This document shows positions 13,012-63,699 of a DNA stretch of 64,000 bases, piece after piece (the stretch's first letter is position 1; every line of letters begins with the position of its first letter). The stretch lies in contig BGKB01000175.1 of assembly GCA_003116975.1 (NCBI GenBank), positions 98,889-162,888 on the forward strand. Reading direction: 5' to 3'. The translations under genes and the position numbers were made by a program. This DNA is from Aurantiochytrium sp. KH105. Its lineage: Eukaryota; Sar; Bigyra; Thraustochytrida; Thraustochytriidae. Under the pieces are notes generated by a model, which ran no database searches, was not told the DNA's origin, and was given only the letters and a program-made list of their open reading frames with translations.

Positions 13012-14661
13012 CTAAAAGGGAGACCGGAAGCGCGAACCTGCGTAGAACGCAGAGCTGCCAAGAGCATGCTGGATGCGTAATAACTGGTTCAATCTCGCAG
13101 CAGTGTTGGGCGAGGCGAAGTTGCCAAACTGCACGAGACCAATGCCTGCGCCGACACAGAAATCAGCAGGAAACTCATCATAAGTGTCGTGCGTTGGCTC
13201 CCACACAACCACCATCGCCTGGCCCATGCTTGCGTTGGCCTCGCAAACCTGTGCGAGGTCCGTCACCGTAAAGACGTCACTAAACGGCGTGCCAATGTAG
13301 ATGCGCTCGCCATTGCACGGAGGTAGGCCGCTGTCCAGGCTTCCGGACGATGTCTTGCCTTCTTCCTCGGCATCCTCTCCGTCTGCCTCGCCGTCGCTTC
13401 CTTCTCCGCCGGCTTCCTTGCCTTCGACGGGCGAAGAGTCCTCGGCTTTAGTCTCTGCGCCATCACCATCCTCAGTGTGGGCTGCAATGCCGTCTTCCGC
13501 GACGTGGTTGAGCAACAAGACTTGCTCGCCATATTCTTCGACGAAATTAGCCATTTGTGATTTGTTTTGCGGAGGAAAGATGTTTTCTGCAATCGCAAGG
13601 AGGAGCCCACTTTCTTCGTTGCCAAGCAGTTCTTTTGCCGCTTCGAAAACTGCGGTTCGCGCATCTTCCGGTGGACTGAAGGACACGTCCAAGCGTGGTG
13701 GACTTGCGCTTGGTGCAACGTGACCTTCTCCCTCACCAGGCTCTTCGTTGTCGCCCTCGGCAGCGTCTTTGCCTTCTGAAGAGTCTTCCTTGCCCTCGCC
13801 ATTTTCGCTTGCGTCAGCCCCATCTTTCATGGGTGCTGCATCATCCGGAAGGTCATCGAGAATCATCTCGCGTGCTGTGACACTGAGCTTGAGCTTTCCG
13901 GCCCATCCTCGTTCCGAGACACACGCAACAACTGCCTGCAAAAGGTCTGCGAAGCTCGATTCCGGGCTCGTAGCTTCAGGAAGGGCTGCAAGTGCACCAA
14001 TTGCTTCACGTGCCAATCGAATTGCGCTTTCCAAGGAACTTGCGCCTGTTGGCAGGATGCCGATCGCATCATGTGCCCGTTCGATTGCGGTGAACCAGGG
14101 AACCGGCATGGCGAACTCACTACGTTTCATGAGACCGGCGACTTGACGAAAGACTGGTTCTTCAATGGCACTTGCTTTGCACATGGCCACCGACGCAGCA
14201 TACAAAGTGTTGCAACCAATCTTGACTTTTCGCTCCGATGTGTCGAGAGCGAGAAGTGCCTGGTCTGCAGCCTCCAGATCAGCGGGATCGCAACCCACCA
14301 GTGCTTTGGCAATGGGTCCATTGATAGTACTGACAAAATTGTCGCCGACGAGGCGGTCTGCTGCGGTCGGGATTCGCACACTACTCACTTGCGTCCTAAA
14401 TCGACCATTGTCCGTGACGATTTCCACCTCGAATGCCTCGTCGCCACTGCAATCGTAGACAATTCGGCCGTGCACCTCGAGCACACCCTGGCCTGCCTTT
14501 GACTTTTCTTTAAAGAGGTCCGCGATTTGGGCATAAGGGTCTTCTGGGCGCTGGCGAAGGCACTCGTTGAGAACCTCATTCACCGTGCGCTCCAGTTCAT
14601 GCTCAGCGAGGTACGCCTCCACCATCTTTTTTTCCGACTTGATCTTCGTTGCGTTCGCCAT
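13012..14661 (-). CDS. ENO4-like enolase-fold pseudoenzyme with RIIa/DPY30-like N-terminus
   Basis: A 549-residue protein. Residues 12-50 resemble an RIIa/DPY-30 docking helix pair, including RPEDP at 39-43. The N-terminal enolase domain follows: a GRIVYD-type opening at 65-70, then GCNTLYAASVAMCKASA (149-165), which aligns with the enolase GANAILGVSLAVCKAGA block, and PVPWF (186-190), which aligns with PVPAF. The C-terminal end (about 445-549) retains the enolase LLRIQHALGSSAFYAG pattern. The canonical substrate loop SHRSGETED is replaced by sequence around WEPTHDTYDE, and two long acidic low-complexity inserts interrupt the barrel, so glycolytic activity is unlikely. Vertebrate ENO4 has the same N-terminal docking region plus degenerate enolase layout and is associated with the sperm flagellum. 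The start chosen is the only upstream ATG. A ciliary role is inferred. Confidence 0.8.
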   Translation of the reverse strand: MANATKIKSEKKMVEAYLAEHELERTVNEVLNECLRQRPEDPYAQIADLFKEKSKAGQGVLEVHGRIVYDCSGDEAFEVEIVTDNGRFRTQVSSVRIPTAADRLVGDNFVSTINGPIAKALVGCDPADLEAADQALLALDTSERKVKIGCNTLYAASVAMCKASAIEEPVFRQVAGLMKRSEFAMPVPWFTAIERAHDAIGILPTGASSLESAIRLAREAIGALAALPEATSPESSFADLLQAVVACVSERGWAGKLKLSVTAREMILDDLPDDAAPMKDGADASENGEGKEDSSEGKDAAEGDNEEPGEGEGHVAPSASPPRLDVSFSPPEDARTAVFEAAKELLGNEESGLLLAIAENIFPPQNKSQMANFVEEYGEQVLLLNHVAEDGIAAHTEDGDGAETKAEDSSPVEGKEAGGEGSDGEADGEDAEEEGKTSSGSLDSGLPPCNGERIYIGTPFSDVFTVTDLAQVCEANASMGQAMVVVWEPTHDTYDEFPADFCVGAGIGLVQFGNFASPNTAARLNQLLRIQHALGSSAFYAGSRFRSPF

Positions 14662-28068: not shown

Positions 28069-29520
28069 TTACTTTTGCTTTGTATTTGTGCGAGGCGTAT
28101 TGAAGGTTTTCCAAGATGGAGGCGCAGGGACAGATCTTGGACGCGGGTGTCTGCGACGAAAAGCTGGGACAGGAGACGCAAGTCCTTCTTCCAGATATGC
28201 GTTGTCATCATCAGAGTCATGCTCGACATCAGATGGAATGAACTCGTCCTCTTGGTTCCTGCTCGGCGGAAATCGAGCCAACGACATGTCTCGCGTGGGT
28301 ACGGGAGAAATGTATTCGTCCTGGGTTGTTTTGCGCGATCGGCGTGGCCGCGCACCTCTGTGACCGCGGCGTCGCCTTGGATTGTCATTGCGGGCGTCGC
28401 CGCTGGTGCCATTGTCACCGTCAGCGTAAGCCATCTTGTCATCGTCGAACTCGTCGTCATAGTCTTCGTCCTCGTCATCGGTAGTGGCAGCACCCGAGCC
28501 ATATTGAAGACCAAGCTTGCCTGCCCCGAATGCAATTGGGTTGCTGTTTGCCAACGAAGGATCAACGTCCAAGAGTCCAAAACCGTACGCCTCGCTCGCA
28601 GGAAGACTGGCGGTGGCGAATTCATAGTTGCTTAGTAGCGCAGGGTATGCTCCATCCGGTTCATCGGCAAAGGAACTTCCACTGGGGTTATCTCCCGAAA
28701 AGATGACCTGCCGCGATACAGGTCGAGTCGGAGGCAGCTCGTAGGAAGGGGCTTGCAGGGCCCTCGAAGGCTTGGGTGAGCGTCGTGCGCGGCGGGACGC
28801 GATGGCTTGACATGGGAGAACATAGGAAGTGCGCGGGCGAAACATGTCGTCAAAGCATTTGGACTTGGACTCCAGCAAACCTTTGAAGTGTTCCTTGCGG
28901 CGCTGCAGGCGGTCCACCGTTGATGGGCGTGACTCGCTTTCATAGATGCCCTTTTCCGCGATGTCGAGGATACCCTTGCGATGTTTGATCTGCAGCTGTC
29001 GGAGATTCTCGAGACGTCTTTCTGTTGCGCCAAGGTGCGCTGCCTCTGCAAAAGAAGAAATATTCTCGGTGGCGCGTCGCTTGGCCTCAAAGGTGCCCTC
29101 TGGGGCCGCGTCATAGGTTCCGGGCCCTGGGAACCGTGGCTCCACGCCTCGGCCCCATCCGTCGACGGGTGTACGGCCCGCCCCAAAGGTTGATTTTGGC
29201 CACAAATCGAATTGCGTTGGGCTCTTGTGCCGGCTGTCTTTGGCCGCCATGGAGCGCATTCCCTTCATAGTGATTTTGGCAAGTCTTTCGTGAGATTTGG
29301 ACATGAGCAACTTCTTCGAGGTCTGCTGTGGCTCGAGCTGTGAGACGCGCAATGGCATTTGTAGGGGCCGCTCTGTTCGGCGGACCTGAAGTTGTTGCAT
29401 TTGAGGCGCGAGGCCAAAGTCAGAGTGTTTGGACAAGCTATACTGTCCAGGGCCAGGTATTTCGCGCGCCTCCTTGATGTCTGCATCCGGATGCATCCAT
29501 GGTGCTGCCTGCGGCAGCAT
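28069..29520 (-). CDS. SHIPPO/STPG-repeat protein (ODF3/CIMAP-like)
   Basis: A 483-residue protein with two clear Pro-Gly-Pro-Gly-x-Tyr (SHIPPO/STPGR) repeats: IPGPGQYSL at 21-29 and FPGPGTYDA at 130-138. Basic linkers separate them, and a helical Lys/Arg/Glu-rich segment covers about 150-225. Such repeats occur in ODF3/CIMAP and STPG proteins that associate with axonemal or cortical microtubules. The C-terminal third is different: an acidic run (DDEDEDYDDEFDDD), an Arg-rich run (RRRRGHRGARPRRSRK), then a Ser/Pro/Arg tail, suggesting disorder. The start is the first ATG. It is convergent with NUF2. The family call is good; the exact orthologue is unknown. Confidence 0.75.
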   Translation of the reverse strand: MLPQAAPWMHPDADIKEAREIPGPGQYSLSKHSDFGLAPQMQQLQVRRTERPLQMPLRVSQLEPQQTSKKLLMSKSHERLAKITMKGMRSMAAKDSRHKSPTQFDLWPKSTFGAGRTPVDGWGRGVEPRFPGPGTYDAAPEGTFEAKRRATENISSFAEAAHLGATERRLENLRQLQIKHRKGILDIAEKGIYESESRPSTVDRLQRRKEHFKGLLESKSKCFDDMFRPRTSYVLPCQAIASRRARRSPKPSRALQAPSYELPPTRPVSRQVIFSGDNPSGSSFADEPDGAYPALLSNYEFATASLPASEAYGFGLLDVDPSLANSNPIAFGAGKLGLQYGSGAATTDDEDEDYDDEFDDDKMAYADGDNGTSGDARNDNPRRRRGHRGARPRRSRKTTQDEYISPVPTRDMSLARFPPSRNQEDEFIPSDVEHDSDDDNAYLEEGLASPVPAFRRRHPRPRSVPAPPSWKTFNTPRTNTKQK

Positions 29521-52831: not shown

Positions 52832-53998
52832 TCAACTTTGATTGCCCTCGAGTCTTGGATGCCTCGGCGCAAGCTTTGGAAGCGCGCGCAAGGCTGACGG
52901 GACCATATTTTCACTAACTTGAAGTCTATTTTGCGAGAAAAACGCAAAGGATAGGTTTTTGAGTTGACCCAGAGACGCCGGCAAAGCCCCCTCCAGCTGA
53001 TTGTGCGCAACGCTAATCCACTCTAGTTCAACAAGATCGCCGAGCGCATCGGGAATTGTGCCGCTCAGCTGATTATTCGCCAAGTTGAGCCATCGCAAGT
53101 TCGAGAGCATCGTTATGGCATCGAGATTGCCAATGAGTGCATTCATGCTCAAATCAAGGGCCCGCAGATTCGACAGAGCTCCCAAGTCGGTCAGACTTGC
53201 AAGCGAACCTCGAAGATGATTGCGGTCTAGACGGAGCGAGACAACATGACCTTTTTCGCACACGACCCCTTCCCATGGCAAGAGACATGGGTCGTCGGCA
53301 TCTTCAGGACGTGGGCGATCATAGCCGCCCTGAGCGGCGCGGGAGATGCGACGCCTTTGCCCAAGATTGTCGACCATCATCATCATCATCATTTCATCCC
53401 GGCCGCTCTCGAGACACTCTTCCGTGCATTCTTGCTTGACTTGAACATCGAGTGTCTCCCAACCAGCTTTGTGACGCCACAAAGTGGGCCCGTCGAGGTT
53501 GCGATAAATTTGCGAAAGCGCAGCTTTCTCATTCGGCACACATGCACCAGAGGGTGCTTCCGGAGGCGGTCGCCAGTTCAAAGCCTCTAGATCGACGAGA
53601 GGTTCATCGGGGAGCACTTTGAGATCAAACCGTCCGTCTTCTGCCCCCCAGCGATACACGTTCCACTCGCCAGTGGCATCCCAGAGGACCCGAATGCCGC
53701 GCCTTTGCTCGTTTTTCCAGTCCACGACTTGGACCACGGTCCCGGGTCCGGGTGGGACTCCGTCCTGCCGGTACCAGACCCAGTCTGCGCCGCGGCGCAC
53801 GCGTTGCCCGACCTGGAGGGGCTGCACGTCGGTCGCCGTCTCAAGGTTCTCCTCCGCCGCTGCTCCCTCGCGCGCGAGGGGCTTGCCACCTCGCGCAAAG
53901 CCTTCATGGTTCTCGCCAACGTTCGCCGCGGCTGCCGCCACCATGAGCAGACAGCACGCACCTCGCCATGCCGCGACAGCGAGGCCTCGCGGGCGCAT
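52832..53998 (-). CDS. Secreted MIB/HERC2-domain plus leucine-rich-repeat protein
   Basis: A 388-residue protein. The N-terminus has a positive start and a hydrophobic run (about 8-26, AVAAWRGACCLLMVAAAAA), read as a signal peptide. Residues 62-130 form a MIB/HERC2-type domain: VGQRVRRGADWVWYRQDG, PGTVVQVVDW, IRVLWDATGEWNVYRWG, FDLKVL. The middle (about 130-255) is Cys-containing and includes an acidic/basic linker with a run of six Met coded by ATG repeats. Leucine-rich repeats follow from about 255 to 370, with a plant-like LRRNT_2 cap (PWEGVVCEKGHVVSLRLDRNHLRG) and repeats of NLRALDLSMNALIGNL type. MIB/HERC2 domains are normally cytosolic ubiquitin-ligase parts, so finding one behind a signal peptide next to LRRs is unusual. 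There is no transmembrane segment at the end. Function unknown; ligand binding is inferred. Confidence 0.82.
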   Translation of the reverse strand: MRPRGLAVAAWRGACCLLMVAAAAANVGENHEGFARGGKPLAREGAAAEENLETATDVQPLQVGQRVRRGADWVWYRQDGVPPGPGTVVQVVDWKNEQRRGIRVLWDATGEWNVYRWGAEDGRFDLKVLPDEPLVDLEALNWRPPPEAPSGACVPNEKAALSQIYRNLDGPTLWRHKAGWETLDVQVKQECTEECLESGRDEMMMMMMVDNLGQRRRISRAAQGGYDRPRPEDADDPCLLPWEGVVCEKGHVVSLRLDRNHLRGSLASLTDLGALSNLRALDLSMNALIGNLDAITMLSNLRWLNLANNQLSGTIPDALGDLVELEWISVAHNQLEGALPASLGQLKNLSFAFFSQNRLQVSENMVPSALRALPKLAPRHPRLEGNQS

Positions 53999-57349: not shown

Positions 57350-60034
57350 TCAAATGGAGTACGTGTCGTCCCCAGCGCCAAACTGCTTGCGGTTGGCCTT
57401 GGGCTTGCTGCGAAAGAAGATTGACATCGGGCGCGGTCCCTCCGCGGCAGCGATCGACTGCTTGAGGCCTCGGATCTCACTCTTGAGGGTCTCGGTCTCC
57501 TTTTGGAGCTGTGCAATCTGCTCAGGATCATGAGACGTCTGCGCCTGGGCGCGCACACGAAGAAGTTCCTCTTGCGAGCTCTGCAGACGCGCGACGAGGT
57601 CGTCGCCTCCGTCCTGGTAGACCACATCGCGGTCAAGATTGGCGAGATTTCCCTCGTAAATGAATTTTTCGTCGCGACGCCAGCGACGGCGGTAGCGGAG
57701 CAAAAAGATGGCGGCAATGAGGAAGAGTCCTGCAGAGACGCCACCGCCAATGGCGGCGTTCATGGCTGCCTGCTGGTTTTCAGGTTCCGTGTTCGTAATT
57801 GGGTCCGGAGCGGGAGTTTCCACAGCCGGCGGGGGTGTGGTGACAACGGCCTCGGCAACGGTGCCAAAGAAGCAGTATGTGGTGTTGCCACTCGCCTGGG
57901 TGGCGCTGGCCAAGCTTACGTCGGTACTGTTGTCCCAAGTGAGATCGAGCGCACAACCCTTGCCATAGGTTGCAAAGAGGGCGAACGACACGTTGATGAG
58001 CTCCGTCTTAAGAACGGCAGAGTACGAACCATCTCCATTGTCGACGATGGTGGCTTCCTCAATGGTTGGCTCTGTGGCATTGTCGATGTAAAAGCCAGTC
58101 TCCACGTCGGGAATCTCGATGAAGAGCGCTGAAAAGGCATCGCTCTGACCTCCAAAGTCGATGGGGTACGTGCACACATCGTAGGTCTGGACGGTGAAGG
58201 TAACCTCAGTCTCTCCGTCGGCCGTGAGATTCTTAGGCACGGCATCAATGTAAATGTCTTCCGAATCGGTCTCGTTGTAGGCGATACCCACAGTCTTGAT
58301 ACTCCACTCCGTCACGCGCTGCAAAACAGGGACAGCGTCCACGGAGGATGTGAAGCCGATGTAAGCGCTCTTACTTCCAATGATGTTTTCCACGCGGAAG
58401 CCGTACTGAGAGAGGAGAAGGTCTCCGCTTTCGTAGATTCTAAGAAGCTCGCCTTGTTCGAGGTATTCAATCGTGTAGTTGTAGAGACTCTTGATCAAAG
58501 TGGTAGCAGATGACAGATAGAGGTCACTACTCGACGGAATGGCTGAGGAGTTTTCGACGTTGTAGCTAATGTACGAATCGGCTTCTGCGCAAGGTTCACC
58601 GTCGACGCGATCGACGCAGAGATCAACCGCAAAGGCAATCGAGTTCTCAATGTTGCTATAACCGAGGCCAGCTCCCGTGGAGATTGGGATATCCTCGAGA
58701 CCAGCTTCGCGATTGTGAACAACAAAGGCGAATCCAGAAGTTTGATTCTCGGAGACTACGCTGTCGGGGTCGATCTCGACAACGAAGTTCGCGATAAAGC
58801 CGCCGACGAGATTGTCTTTGTTCTTGTGGAAAGCATAGGTGCTCGTGTAATCGAGGACGCCGTCGGTGATGTCGATGCCATCCGCAGTAACATCGGCACC
58901 AGAGCTGATGGAAAATACTGAGGCCTGATCTGTGACTGAGGTGTCCGGAAAGCTGACTGTTTCGACGCCACTGTCCAGGACAGTGCAGGTGGAGGGGGGC
59001 AAGGTTGTGGGATATGGCGTTGGGCTAAGTGTGGGCAGTGGCGTGGGCTCAGGGGTAGGCGGAGCTATGGGGGCCCGCGTAGGGTTCTTCGTGGGCTGCT
59101 CAGTGGGCGACTCTGTCAAGCAGATGGCATCTCCAATAATCTCCTTGAGTTCCCCGGAAAAGTCTTGGAGTTGCCAGTTGGAGATATCAATGAGGCGGTA
59201 GTCGCTGTTGCTAAAGTCGCTAAAGAGGTTGGTGTTGGCCCCGGTGATTGCGCCATAGACAAGGAAAGTGTTTGAGGTGGCGGCAATCTCCCTGAGGCGG
59301 TCGCGCGCGGCCTCGCCACACTCGTTTTGCCTGTTTCTATTTTCGACTCCATTACAACCCTGAAGACTTGTCCTGGTACCTCGATAGTTCGGTTCTCCGT
59401 CCGTGAGAAGGATGATGATGGTCATGGTATTAGCGTCGAACTCTTGCCGCCTGGCCAACCCCTTGCGGAGTGCATCGTCGATGTTTGTGCTGCCGCCCTT
59501 GCGTCTCAGCGAGTCTATTTTCGTCTCGAAGCCGCAAACGTTGTTGGTGAAAGTATCCGTATTTTCGTCTTCCACATAACGATGGAACTCAAAGTACGAA
59601 GTGTCCACGAGGGTTTTTTGGTCGGCGAAGGCCATGCTCGATGTAACTTGGATGGTGAGGTCCTTCATGTCCTCGTAGTTGCTGGTACTAACACTTCCGG
59701 ATTCGTCCAGCAACCAGATGAGATTGAAGTCCTTGTTCCCGCAGGAGCTGTCAGCTTCGCGCACAATGCTTTGGTACGTGTAGCCGTTCTCGTAGCACTC
59801 CGTATTGGAGACCTTGCAAACTGGGCTTCTGTCAATATCGTAGAGGACACCGACGCAAGCACTGTCGCTTTCGCATGTCTCCTGGCAGGTGTACAGGCAA
59901 GTGCCGGTGCCGAGGCTGGTGCCGCCGCCGCACGGGGCCGACGGGTTCGCGTACTCGAACGAGGTGGCCTCCGCGCGTCCCGCGAGCGCCAGCACGCCAA
60001 GCAGCGCCGCGAGCGCCGCGCTGGCCTTGTTCAT
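57350..60034 (-). CDS. Cell-surface receptor: PAN-like, VWA, Pro/Thr linker, L-type lectin, filamin-fold, TM
   Basis: An 894-residue type I membrane protein. The signal peptide is about 1-23 (MNKASAALAALLGVLALAGRA). Residues 30-98 form a Cys-rich PAN/Apple-like module (CLYTCQETCESDSACVGVLYD). Residues 100-305 are a von Willebrand A domain with a complete MIDAS: DESGS at 110-114, Thr183 in GGSTN, Asp212 in LTDGEPN. A Pro/Thr linker (309-348) with PTEQPTKNPTRAP-type repeats follows, typical of stramenopile surface proteins. Residues 360-585 resemble an L-type (legume-like) lectin: SGFAFVVHN, GLGYSNIENSIAFAVDLCVD. About 590-700 is a filamin/Ig-like module with the VDNGDGSYSAVL signature. A transmembrane helix lies at about 760-780, then a basic stop-transfer and a cytoplasmic coiled coil (810-865). 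Several Asn-x-Ser/Thr sites lie outside. Probably adhesion or recognition; the ligand is unknown. The start is the ATG opening the signal peptide. Confidence 0.85.
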   Translation of the reverse strand: MNKASAALAALLGVLALAGRAEATSFEYANPSAPCGGGTSLGTGTCLYTCQETCESDSACVGVLYDIDRSPVCKVSNTECYENGYTYQSIVREADSSCGNKDFNLIWLLDESGSVSTSNYEDMKDLTIQVTSSMAFADQKTLVDTSYFEFHRYVEDENTDTFTNNVCGFETKIDSLRRKGGSTNIDDALRKGLARRQEFDANTMTIIILLTDGEPNYRGTRTSLQGCNGVENRNRQNECGEAARDRLREIAATSNTFLVYGAITGANTNLFSDFSNSDYRLIDISNWQLQDFSGELKEIIGDAICLTESPTEQPTKNPTRAPIAPPTPEPTPLPTLSPTPYPTTLPPSTCTVLDSGVETVSFPDTSVTDQASVFSISSGADVTADGIDITDGVLDYTSTYAFHKNKDNLVGGFIANFVVEIDPDSVVSENQTSGFAFVVHNREAGLEDIPISTGAGLGYSNIENSIAFAVDLCVDRVDGEPCAEADSYISYNVENSSAIPSSSDLYLSSATTLIKSLYNYTIEYLEQGELLRIYESGDLLLSQYGFRVENIIGSKSAYIGFTSSVDAVPVLQRVTEWSIKTVGIAYNETDSEDIYIDAVPKNLTADGETEVTFTVQTYDVCTYPIDFGGQSDAFSALFIEIPDVETGFYIDNATEPTIEEATIVDNGDGSYSAVLKTELINVSFALFATYGKGCALDLTWDNSTDVSLASATQASGNTTYCFFGTVAEAVVTTPPPAVETPAPDPITNTEPENQQAAMNAAIGGGVSAGLFLIAAIFLLRYRRRWRRDEKFIYEGNLANLDRDVVYQDGGDDLVARLQSSQEELLRVRAQAQTSHDPEQIAQLQKETETLKSEIRGLKQSIAAAEGPRPMSIFFRSKPKANRKQFGAGDDTYSI

Positions 60035-61006
60035 CCTCCTCCTCCTCCTCTTCCCGCTGGCTCGGCCCTCCTGCGCGCCGGCTCGCTCGCTCGCTGCCCG
60101 GCCCTCTCTCGCCCCGCGCCGCGCCGCGCCGCGCACGCTCGCTCGCTCGCTCGCTCGCTCGCTCGCCCTCCGCTCGCTCGCTCGATCGGGCTCTGCCGCC
60201 CTTGACGCCTTTTTTCGCTGCTCCGACGGCCGGGCTCGGCGCGTGCACGCTTTCGATTCCCCCTTTGCCTCCCTCTCTCTCTGCCTCCCTCCGCACCGGC
60301 GGCTTCGTCGCGACCACACTCGCGCTTCGCGTTTCGCTCCTCCCTCCCTCCCTGCTCGCTTGCTTGCTTCCTGCCCCGGTGCGGCGCGCGCCGCTTTCGT
60401 CGCACGAAGTCGCGAGCGAGCGAGGGAGGGAGGAGCGGGCGAGCGGGGGAGAGGCGCGTCGCGCGGCGCGGCCCGACCGCGGGCGGCCGCCGGAGCGCAG
60501 CCGCAGCAGCTGCAGAGCGGAGCAGAGCGAGCAGAGCGGGGCGGAGCAGAGCGGAGCAGAGCAGAGCAGAGCAGAGCGCGCTGCCTGCACGTGCGGCGAG
60601 CGAGGGAGGGAGCACGGGCGGGTGCACGCGCGGGAACACGAAGGAGAGAATGAGGCGCGGATGGAGGATGAGGGAGGGAGGGAGCGGCGCGATGCAAGGA
60701 CGCGTGGCCGCCGCGGCCGCGGGGGATGGCGGAGGGAGCCTGAGGGAAGGAAGGTGGCGATGGGGCGGCCTCGATGCAGAGGCAGGGGAGAGGAGGGAGG
60801 GGGGAAGGAAAAAGGCCGAACGAAGACCGAATCCAGGCACGCGCTGCACGTGCTGCAGGCGAGGCGAGCAGCCACAGAAGCAGCAGCAGCAGCGCAGGCG
60901 AGGCCTTCTGCGTCGCGAGCAGCGCGCGACTGGGCAGCAGCGACGGACGCCGGCAGTCTCGGGCTGCCTGTCCACTTGTCTGTCTGTCTGTCTGTCTGTC
61001 TGTCCA

Positions 61007-61040
<34 letters not shown>

Positions 61041-61320
61041 ACCAGTGCGGTCCCCATCGCTCGCACCATCCTCCGCCGTCAGTGTGTTTGTTTGTGCACA
61101 CGCACGCACGCACAGACGAGACAGACACACGCACACGGGGGCTTCTTCGAAGGTCACTCCCGGCGCCACGGGCCGCTCGCGACTCCACGCCACGCGCGCG
61201 CATCCCAACGCGCGCCTGCGCGGCCTCGGCGCAGACTTTCGCCTCGCTGTCACGCGCGGCAACCGACGGCGGCGCTCACAATCCGTGCAGGCGGCAGGCA
61301 GCTATAGCTAGCTAGCTAGC
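60035..61320. other. Receptor leader/promoter region with microsatellites
   Basis: Extremely GC-rich; long open frames on both strands are Arg/Ala/Ser-rich artefacts. Contains CGAGC/CGCTC runs near 60140-60180, GAGCA units at 60510-60577 and a (TGTC)n tract at 60977-61040. No gene was recognised. Confidence 0.5.
60977..61040. repeat. (TGTC)n tetranucleotide repeat
   Basis: About 14 TGTC units interrupted once by CACT; roughly 940 bp upstream of the receptor start. Confidence 0.9.
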
Positions 61321-63699
61321 TGCAGCAGCAGCGGCCACGAAGGATTGGCAGGCAGGCATCTTGCAGGAAGACAAGGGAGGGCGAGCTGTGGGGGGGCGAC
61401 GAGAGGCGTGCCGGCTCGCCTCCGAGGCCGCGGTAGGAGGGACCTAACTACCAGCAGCCTAGGCAGGCCAGAGAGACAGACGGGCGGGGGCTCTCTGGCT
61501 GGAGTCTGTCACCTCGCAGCGCATCAACGCGCATCGCAACAGCCGCACCGGCTGCCGGCTGGCGACGGCGATCGAGCCCGCTGCCAAGAGAGGCTGGATT
61601 GAGTGAGCAGCCGGGGCGCCGAGGAGGAGGATGCGGCCGCGAGCGCGTTCTGGGCCGGCACAGCGCCGCTGCTTGCCGCGAGGTTTGTTAGTTAGTGTGT
61701 GGTTGACGTTACAATAAAAACAACAAGAAGATTGGAAGAACAGCCCTGACGTGGATTGTGGTGGCTGGCGACGCGGAGATTTGACCTGCCGTACTGTCAA
61801 AAACAACCGCTGCAGCTTGGCAATGGTCTCCGCAACGCAAAAAGAGCAACAAGAGGTCGCAAGACACGGAGGAAAAAGCAGTCACGTTAGCGGCAGCATA
61901 GGCCTACGACCATCTTGAACGTAAGGGAAAGTGACAAAGCAGAATCTTCTGGCCTTACTTACATGGTTGAGCCTAGACGAAGGTTATGGAGCAAACGGGA
62001 TCACCTTTTTCTCATCTATTCTCGTGTCGAGAGCGCGTCGTTCGCTCTCAAGAGCGTCTGCAGCTGCTGCGCTCTCAAGAGCGCGGGATCTCAACGCGCC
62101 TGAGCGAGCTCAAATTTCAAAGGTCTCAATCTCCATGTCAGCAGAGACGCCGCGGAGACGCTGCCGCGCAGGCGACCCGCGCAGGCGGGTAGACAGCCCT
62201 GATGCGCGTGCTTGGTCGACGGTGTCGCAAGCTTGCGGTGCCCATAGGGGCGCGCTCGTCGCATTGCTCGGCGCGGAGTCTCGCCGCTGGGAGCAGCTTG
62301 AAGATCCAGCCAGCGAAGATGCGTGCGGGCGCTGATGGCGCGAGCAACGAGAGGCGAGGCGCGGGGAGGCCAAGACGCGGCTGTATTGATGGAGACGCGC
62401 ATTCCGAGAAGACTGCCTCGCGCTGCCCGGCGACTTGAGGATTGGATTGAACAGCAGCAAGCAAGCAAGAAAGACCACCGCAGCGTCTCGGAAGCTGTGA
62501 AAAGCGCTTACGATACGCGTCGCGTCAAGCCCGCAGTCATGCTGTCTGCAACTTTACACTTTGTGAAAGTCGATGTTTGAGCCGATGCTGGCGGCCAAGC
62601 AGGGTTCAAGTCAATGAGTCGATGCGGCCACGACCGCTCGCTTTGCAATCATAGTGTCAAATGCGCAGCAAGCGAAAGGCCTACGCACAGCGAGAAAACA
62701 TTGCAACGAGAAACGCCGTCATGCGCTGGGTCATGCATACTGTGTTCTTTGAGGCGTACCTGCTGGGCCAATGCCACATCGTCAAGCCTGTTGTCGCCCT
62801 GCAATGTTGCTCTGCCTTTTTTGGCAAACTTGAGACAAATCAGTAGCGCCAAGGCAAAGTAGCTTCTTGCAATAGTTAGGTGTGTAGCAGACGAGCGCTG
62901 TCGACTCTGGGAAACTGTTCAGGCCAGCGCCGAAGTGTCATTGAGCCATATCACGCTTACGGGTACAATTAGGCAAGGACACATTTTGTAGCAGTTGCTG
63001 TTGATGCGATGGAATGAGAGGCAGAGCCGCGGCAGGGACGGAACTCGAGGCTGGCCGTGGCTAGATGGGTCAAGTTCAGTCGAAAATTCGAGGCGTTCAG
63101 AGCGAGTCGCAGTCGGTCTTATTTAGCCTCCGCGCGTTGTATCCAAATTTATATTTAGAGTCTTGATACCTCGGAAATTCTTGCGCGGCTCTTTCATGCC
63201 AGACAAAACTTCTTTGCGACCTGATTCTTGAAGAGAAGGAAGGAACGCCGATCGGATGACGAAGCACACTTGACGATGACCACTCGAAAAGTCGGTAGAC
63301 GGAGGATTGAGTTGCTACTGTTGTCATGGTTAGGAAAGTGTCGGCAGACTCTCTAAGATAGTTCTCGAGACAGTACCAATTGGAAGAGTTTCTCGTCAGC
63401 AAAAGAGTGCTTGAGGTGCGCTCTCCTCGCAATTGTAGTCATGCCCTCGGAAATTTGTAACGCCGCCGCCGCATCTCCCGTCGCCCGTCTCCAGAGGACA
63501 GACAAAGCTCTGTGGATCCAACCACCTTCGAACTATCTCAGCTTTCTATAATGTCCTATTTTGATTGAGGCGCGTGCAACAACAAATAAAAAGCAAAAGT
63601 TAATAAGTGAGATAGGTATTGCTACTGTGTCGCAGTAAGTGATCACAAGCAGTTAAAGTCAGTCGCCCACCCGCGCAGGCATGGCACACGGTACGGCGA
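61321..63699. other. 2.4-kb stretch without a recognisable gene
   Basis: GC-rich at first, then more AT-rich from about 61.7 kb. It contains only frames below about 135 codons without domain character, on both strands. A short CTCAAGAGCG duplication is near 62046-62084. I see no gene, RNA gene or transposon hallmark. Confidence 0.45.

Follow-up and report, generated by a model that had tools for sequence, protein, structure and literature searches.

We report that the reading frame at positions 57350 to 60034 (minus strand) of the window, i.e. the whole 64,000-nucleotide stretch of DNA analysed here, probably encodes a single-pass protist adhesion receptor with an integrin-I-domain-like MIDAS, carried on a lectin-fold and Ig-like stalk. 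The gene appears real, with an open frame, a signal peptide, an ectodomain, one transmembrane helix, a coiled-coil-like tail and codon bias. The frame, the VWA match, the MIDAS residues, the lectin fold, the loss of canonical lectin residues, the transmembrane helix and the heptad pattern were all computed directly, and the protein is predicted to reside at the cell surface. The original prediction had described PAN-like, VWA, L-type lectin and filamin-fold modules in a receptor that could couple metal-dependent protein adhesion with glycan recognition. Its frame, VWA domain, lectin fold, transmembrane helix and tail heptads were recovered, but the filamin and PAN modules were not confirmed; likewise we retain its type I surface receptor with a complete-MIDAS VWA domain (frame, PF00092), but neither the glycan recognition nor the filamin label. 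Protist adhesion receptors are known from few lineages only, and the protein is a concrete candidate for surface attachment. Its parts are as follows:

57350..60034, minus strand, whole reading frame (894 aa and stop; open frame, codon bias), predicted single-pass type I surface protein
59966..60034, minus strand, predicted signal peptide, aa 1-23 (hydrophobic stretch observed directly, cleavage site putative)
59738..59965, minus strand, Cys-rich N-terminal module, aa 24-99, with 8 Cys, PAN-like by pattern only (PAN_4 E 3.8; Cys positions)
59117..59737, minus strand, VWA domain, aa 100-306, with complete MIDAS (D110, S112, S114, T183, D212; PF00092 E 8.1e-9, above cut-off; motif positions)
58991..59116, minus strand, Pro/Thr-rich linker, aa 307-348 (sequence; PT disordered repeat E 0.89)
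58286..58960, minus strand, L-type lectin-fold domain, aa 359-583, with degenerate canonical metal/sugar site (PF18483, lectin profiles, AF2 model, PDB match)
57830..58270, minus strand, Ig-like (invasin-D3-type) module, aa 589-735, weakly supported (Invasin_D3 below cut-off)
57698..57757, minus strand, transmembrane helix, aa 760-779 (hydropathy, sequence); its first half contains GGGVSAG, and RYRRRWRR comes after it
57353..57697, minus strand, cytoplasmic tail, aa 780-894, with a short coiled-coil-like stretch at aa 838-866 (57437-57523; heptad test, motif scan)

The reading frame and its surroundings

The ATG of the frame is followed by a signal-peptide-like stretch and by 894 aa without interruption. 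When codons 16-855 were split into 14 segments of 60 codons, codon-usage log-odds trained on seven other ORFs of the window (4685 codons) favoured this frame over the other five in 13 of them; the single exception was codons 316-375, which start inside the Pro/Thr linker. Judged from the sequence alone, this codon-bias scan gave no sign of an intron that would alter the domain order, which had been named as one risk to the predicted architecture. Upstream of the ATG the same frame shows no clear rise in log-odds: the five segments lying wholly upstream reach 0.09 at most, and in two of them the gene's frame was marginally the best of six. The frame continues open as far as 61069, and a longer upstream start was rejected for want of clear coding bias. 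The region 60035-61400, upstream of the gene, is G+C-rich and of low complexity with GACA and GCGA repeats; it is open in several frames, and the gene's frame has no clear coding bias there. A paralogue within the window was also rejected, the best other tblastn match having an E-value of 1.4.

A scan of 22 other frames of the window gave Pfam matches at E≤0.01 for 15, which resemble ordinary nuclear genes (kinases, Raptor, Nuf2, Band 7, RGS, WASH, PP2C and others); the Rfam scan of the 64-kb window gave no match at the gathering score. One minus-strand frame, 13012-14661, is enolase-like, with Enolase_N at aa 62-167, Enolase_C only at aa 465-547 and a long unmatched middle. In the PDB it is most similar to the phosphopyruvate hydratase of 7n6g/7sqc (E 1e-33), a Chlamydomonas axoneme structure, and its product is possibly an axonemal enolase-like protein. 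The frame at 28069-29520 (minus) has a weak SHIPPO (sperm-tail PG-rich) repeat, with E 0.001 and 20.5 bits against a cut-off of 20, hinting at a flagellated life stage, and the frame at 52832-53998 (minus) combines a MIB_HERC2 domain with leucine-rich repeats.

The VWA domain has a complete MIDAS

The assignment of the VWA domain is firm, with a score above the Pfam cut-off and an intact MIDAS. PF00092 scores 36.4 bits on the VWA piece (cut-off 23.8, E 8.1e-9) and 33.1 bits on the whole protein, and the residues of the DxSxS...T...D pattern, which we take to define a MIDAS, are present as D110-E-S-G-S, T183 and D212, exactly where they had been predicted. The PDB matches of the VWA piece are all weak: integrin alpha-M (E 0.17) and ITI heavy chain H4 (E 0.024), besides PilB, a pilus protein (E 0.026), and collagen VI (E 0.46). 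An intact MIDAS is also known from non-adhesin VWA proteins. We suggest that the domain would use a MIDAS-held metal ion to bind a protein ligand, or else an acidic group, as integrin I domains do, and that the Pro/Thr linker may set it apart from the remaining protein.

An L-type lectin fold below the Pfam cut-off

The predicted legume-lectin-like domain is firm as a fold, though under the Pfam cut-off, on the basis of profile scores and an AlphaFold model. On the lectin piece PF18483 gives an E-value of 1.6e-4, yet only 22 bits against a Pfam cut-off of 78.3; in five shuffles of aa 349-735 (from ten made) the best Pfam E-value was 0.12. A profile built from eight bacterial lectins, whose loci had been fetched by a DNA pattern for a motif resembling the GLGY stretch of the window, scored 38.7 bits on the protein (E 1.1e-9, library size 24736). 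A second profile, from 33 domain slices of 26 further bacterial loci fetched by family search, scored 52.0 bits over aa 370-581 (E 8.4e-14). This second profile is partly dependent on the window, given that its slices were chosen with the eight-locus profile picked by a GLGY-like motif; moreover, seven of the 26 loci share genomes with four of the eight pattern-chosen loci, and some of the 33 slices represent one domain seen repeatedly in overlapping loci. On the lectin piece alone it scored 57.1 bits, and the 31.4 bits left with the GLGY motif masked address the selection by that motif. The reversed piece scored -1.3 bits, and the best shuffle reached 10.2 bits among 1781 scored of 2000 made, the 219 without a HMMER report being counted as lower scoring.

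The AlphaFold2 model of the domain (nine sequences) has a mean pLDDT of 73.7 and a pTM of 0.78; its alignment holds the same eight bacterial sequences, and the modelled fold is accordingly not independent of them. Foldseek returned 226 matches at E≤0.001, of which the best 50 were all legume-type lectins, with 7elv from Methanocaldococcus jannaschii at the top (E 3.4e-9, TM 0.64/0.73). A short PDB match of the lectin piece to EHMT2 (E 0.097) was rejected as a relative.

The canonical metal and sugar site is degenerate

To compare the site, 29 bacterial domains, left from 41 after removal of near-duplicates, were aligned with the protein, so that the consensus is a bacterial one, and the metal/sugar roles of the six positions (Asp of ADG; Glu and Asp of xEFD; Asn, Asp and His/Glu) are presumed to be those of legume lectins. 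Only D471, at position 3 (Asp in 29/29 domains), is identical to the consensus. The other five positions are changed: position 1 (Asp in 24/29) is S433, position 2 (Glu in 26/29) is A469, position 4 (Asn in 20/29) is D475, position 5 (Asp in 24/29) is E480 and position 6 (His or Glu in 28/29) is Y488, where the pairing of 475, 480 and 488 with bacterial columns depends on the alignment and three of the changed positions fall in the low-confidence part of the model (model residues 121-170, i.e. aa 469-518, averaging 37 to 60 per ten-residue block). The loop of the site contains C473 and C482, and a predicted N-glycosylation sequon, N430-Q-T, starts three residues ahead of S433, the former sugar-ligand Asp. 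Because five of the six canonical positions differ from the bacterial consensus, the predicted glycan recognition is not supported. The classical site is probably dead, and going by these residues the receptor probably grips protein, not sugar. Lectins can bind sugar via another site, and we therefore regard the glycan reading as weakened, another sugar-binding mode being possible.

One more specific form of the receptor reading, which we put forward tentatively, is that of a lineage-specific receptor whose MIDAS VWA head sits on a lectin fold that lacks its sugar site and was rebuilt, with the C473/C482 loop (which may hold a disulfide), into a stalk with a mechanical or protein-binding role; this arrangement would have no described counterpart. 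If the lectin module of a VWA receptor has indeed decayed, it would show a sugar-binding fold re-used as a scaffold. The dual receptor as originally proposed, which would bind protein via the VWA domain and glycan via the lectin module, possibly through a rebuilt site, seems unlikely to us. The lectin fold is real, D471 is retained, the replacements D475 and E480 are conservative, which leaves some cation binding possible, and one of the 29 bacterial domains (L032, in whose frame there is also a GSDH domain) likewise has Ser where the sugar-ligand Asp is expected, with no known loss of activity. However, the sugar-ligand Asp has become Ser433, the metal Glu Ala469 and the His/Glu Tyr488, the predicted sequon at N430 adjoins the site, and two Cys lie in its loop.

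The Cys-rich and Ig-like modules

By eye, aa 24-99 have a PAN-like Cys spacing, but the predicted PAN-like module was not confirmed, as the PAN_4 profile gave an E-value of 3.8 and the PDB search found no match for this piece at E up to 10. Across 59 genomes PAN_4 gave zero matches, and so did the controls, which makes that scan uninformative.

For aa 589-735 the best match is Invasin_D3 (E 1e-5; its 26.4 bits fall short of the cut-off, 33), and a profile of 20 invasin-D3-like loci scored 12.5 bits (E 0.15) against 11.5 for the best shuffle (1988 of 2000 scored). The filamin-type module predicted here was not borne out: PF00630 was not recovered at E up to 10, and a profile of 16 filamin-like bacterial loci scored 2.0 bits against 8.2 for the best shuffle (1730 of 2000 scored), which is a weak test given that only one of the 16 matches exceeded the family cut-off. 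Unscored shuffles (12 of 2000 for the invasin-D3 profile, 270 of 2000 for the filamin profile) were counted as lower. The single-sequence model of the module (pLDDT 37) has no usable fold. All nine predicted sequons of the protein lie within aa 430-719, outside the Cys-rich module and the VWA domain. Together, the lectin-fold and Ig-like modules may form a glycosylated, membrane-proximal stalk, in which the lectin fold has probably lost classical metal-dependent sugar binding.

Transmembrane helix and tail

The single transmembrane helix and the coiled-coil tail agree with the original description. The peak 19-residue hydropathy window is aa 761-779, placing the helix at approximately aa 760-779, and for the tail heptads at aa 838-866 an equally good pattern was seen in 0.7% of 5000 shuffles. 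A scan of aa 786-894 for the usual NPxY, YxxPhi and acidic dileucine patterns found none of them, and the missing NPxY-type motif counts against the adhesion receptor. The Gly-rich helix and the tail coiled coil would probably allow pairing or clustering of the receptor and its coupling to cytoplasmic partners. A structural or matrix-anchoring protein of a cell wall or scale, in which the VWA domain and lectin fold would build extracellular matrix with no receptor role, is improbable in our view. In its favour, VWA and Ig-like modules are frequent in matrix proteins, the VWA domain weakly matches collagen VI (E 0.46) in the PDB, and a sorting or talin-type motif was not found in aa 786-894; against it, the transmembrane helix and the 115-aa tail with its coiled-coil-like stretch suggest an intracellular partner.

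Comparison with known systems

Relatives of the full protein were found neither in viral contigs nor in genome contigs, and those of the lectin piece neither in viral contigs nor, by tblastn, in plasmids and phages. The bacterial lectin alignment gave 59 pattern matches in viral contigs with zero confirmed relatives, and the lectin DNA pattern had no match there. As the collections cover viral, phage, plasmid, bacterial and archaeal sequences, the absence of relatives is no evidence of uniqueness. In titles and the beginnings of abstracts in the open-access literature on VWA, lectin and filamin in labyrinthulomycetes, thraustochytrids and stramenopiles, the architecture is not described. Lectin-like and adhesin-like genes as such are not new in stramenopiles, since the available parts of three reports mention transcripts with homology to lectins and integrins in the thraustochytrid QPX (PMC3986615), genes for lectin and other adhesion domains that are up in stationary phase in a heterotrophic stramenopile flagellate (PMC7852580) and candidates for the ectoplasmic net, one of them micronemal-adhesin-like, in Aurantiochytrium limacinum (PMC12221091). 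If the host is a labyrinthulomycete, our protein would add one more possible adhesin to the short list for the ectoplasmic net, as far as the latter report lists them (PMC12221091).

The lectin domain shares its fold and the GLGY...NS...D core with the bacterial and archaeal L-type lectins (PF18483; M. jannaschii 7elv), but differs from the bacterial ones at five of the six canonical site positions. Ten lectin-bearing bacterial frames had as partners TIG (5), GSDH (2), Malectin (2, one with a weak LRR_adjacent) or none (1), and VWA in none of the ten (from 10 of 34 loci, frames ending at locus edges). The apicomplexan MIC2/TRAP adhesins have a VWA domain with MIDAS, further modules, a transmembrane helix and a short tail; their partner modules are thrombospondin repeats, whereas the protein reported here has an L-type lectin fold.

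As to the Sib proteins of Dictyostelium, we know of no L-type lectin in their ectodomains. A capture receptor for feeding or phagocytosis of the Sib kind, which would be a particular, overlapping form of the adhesion receptor favoured here, has in its favour the Sib layout of a VWA domain and a Gly-rich transmembrane helix (as given in the available part of PMC5758549), matched by GGGVSAG in our protein, but NPxY was not found in aa 786-894 and the likeness is one of layout; we give it little probability. The adhesion receptor itself shares the VWA domain and the Gly-rich helix with the integrin-beta-like phagocytic adhesins SibA to SibE, and differs from them, compared by description only, in lacking NPxY in aa 786-894 and in having a lectin fold; by this analogy, and within what the available part of the source describes (PMC5758549), the Sib family would be the nearest functional parallel found.
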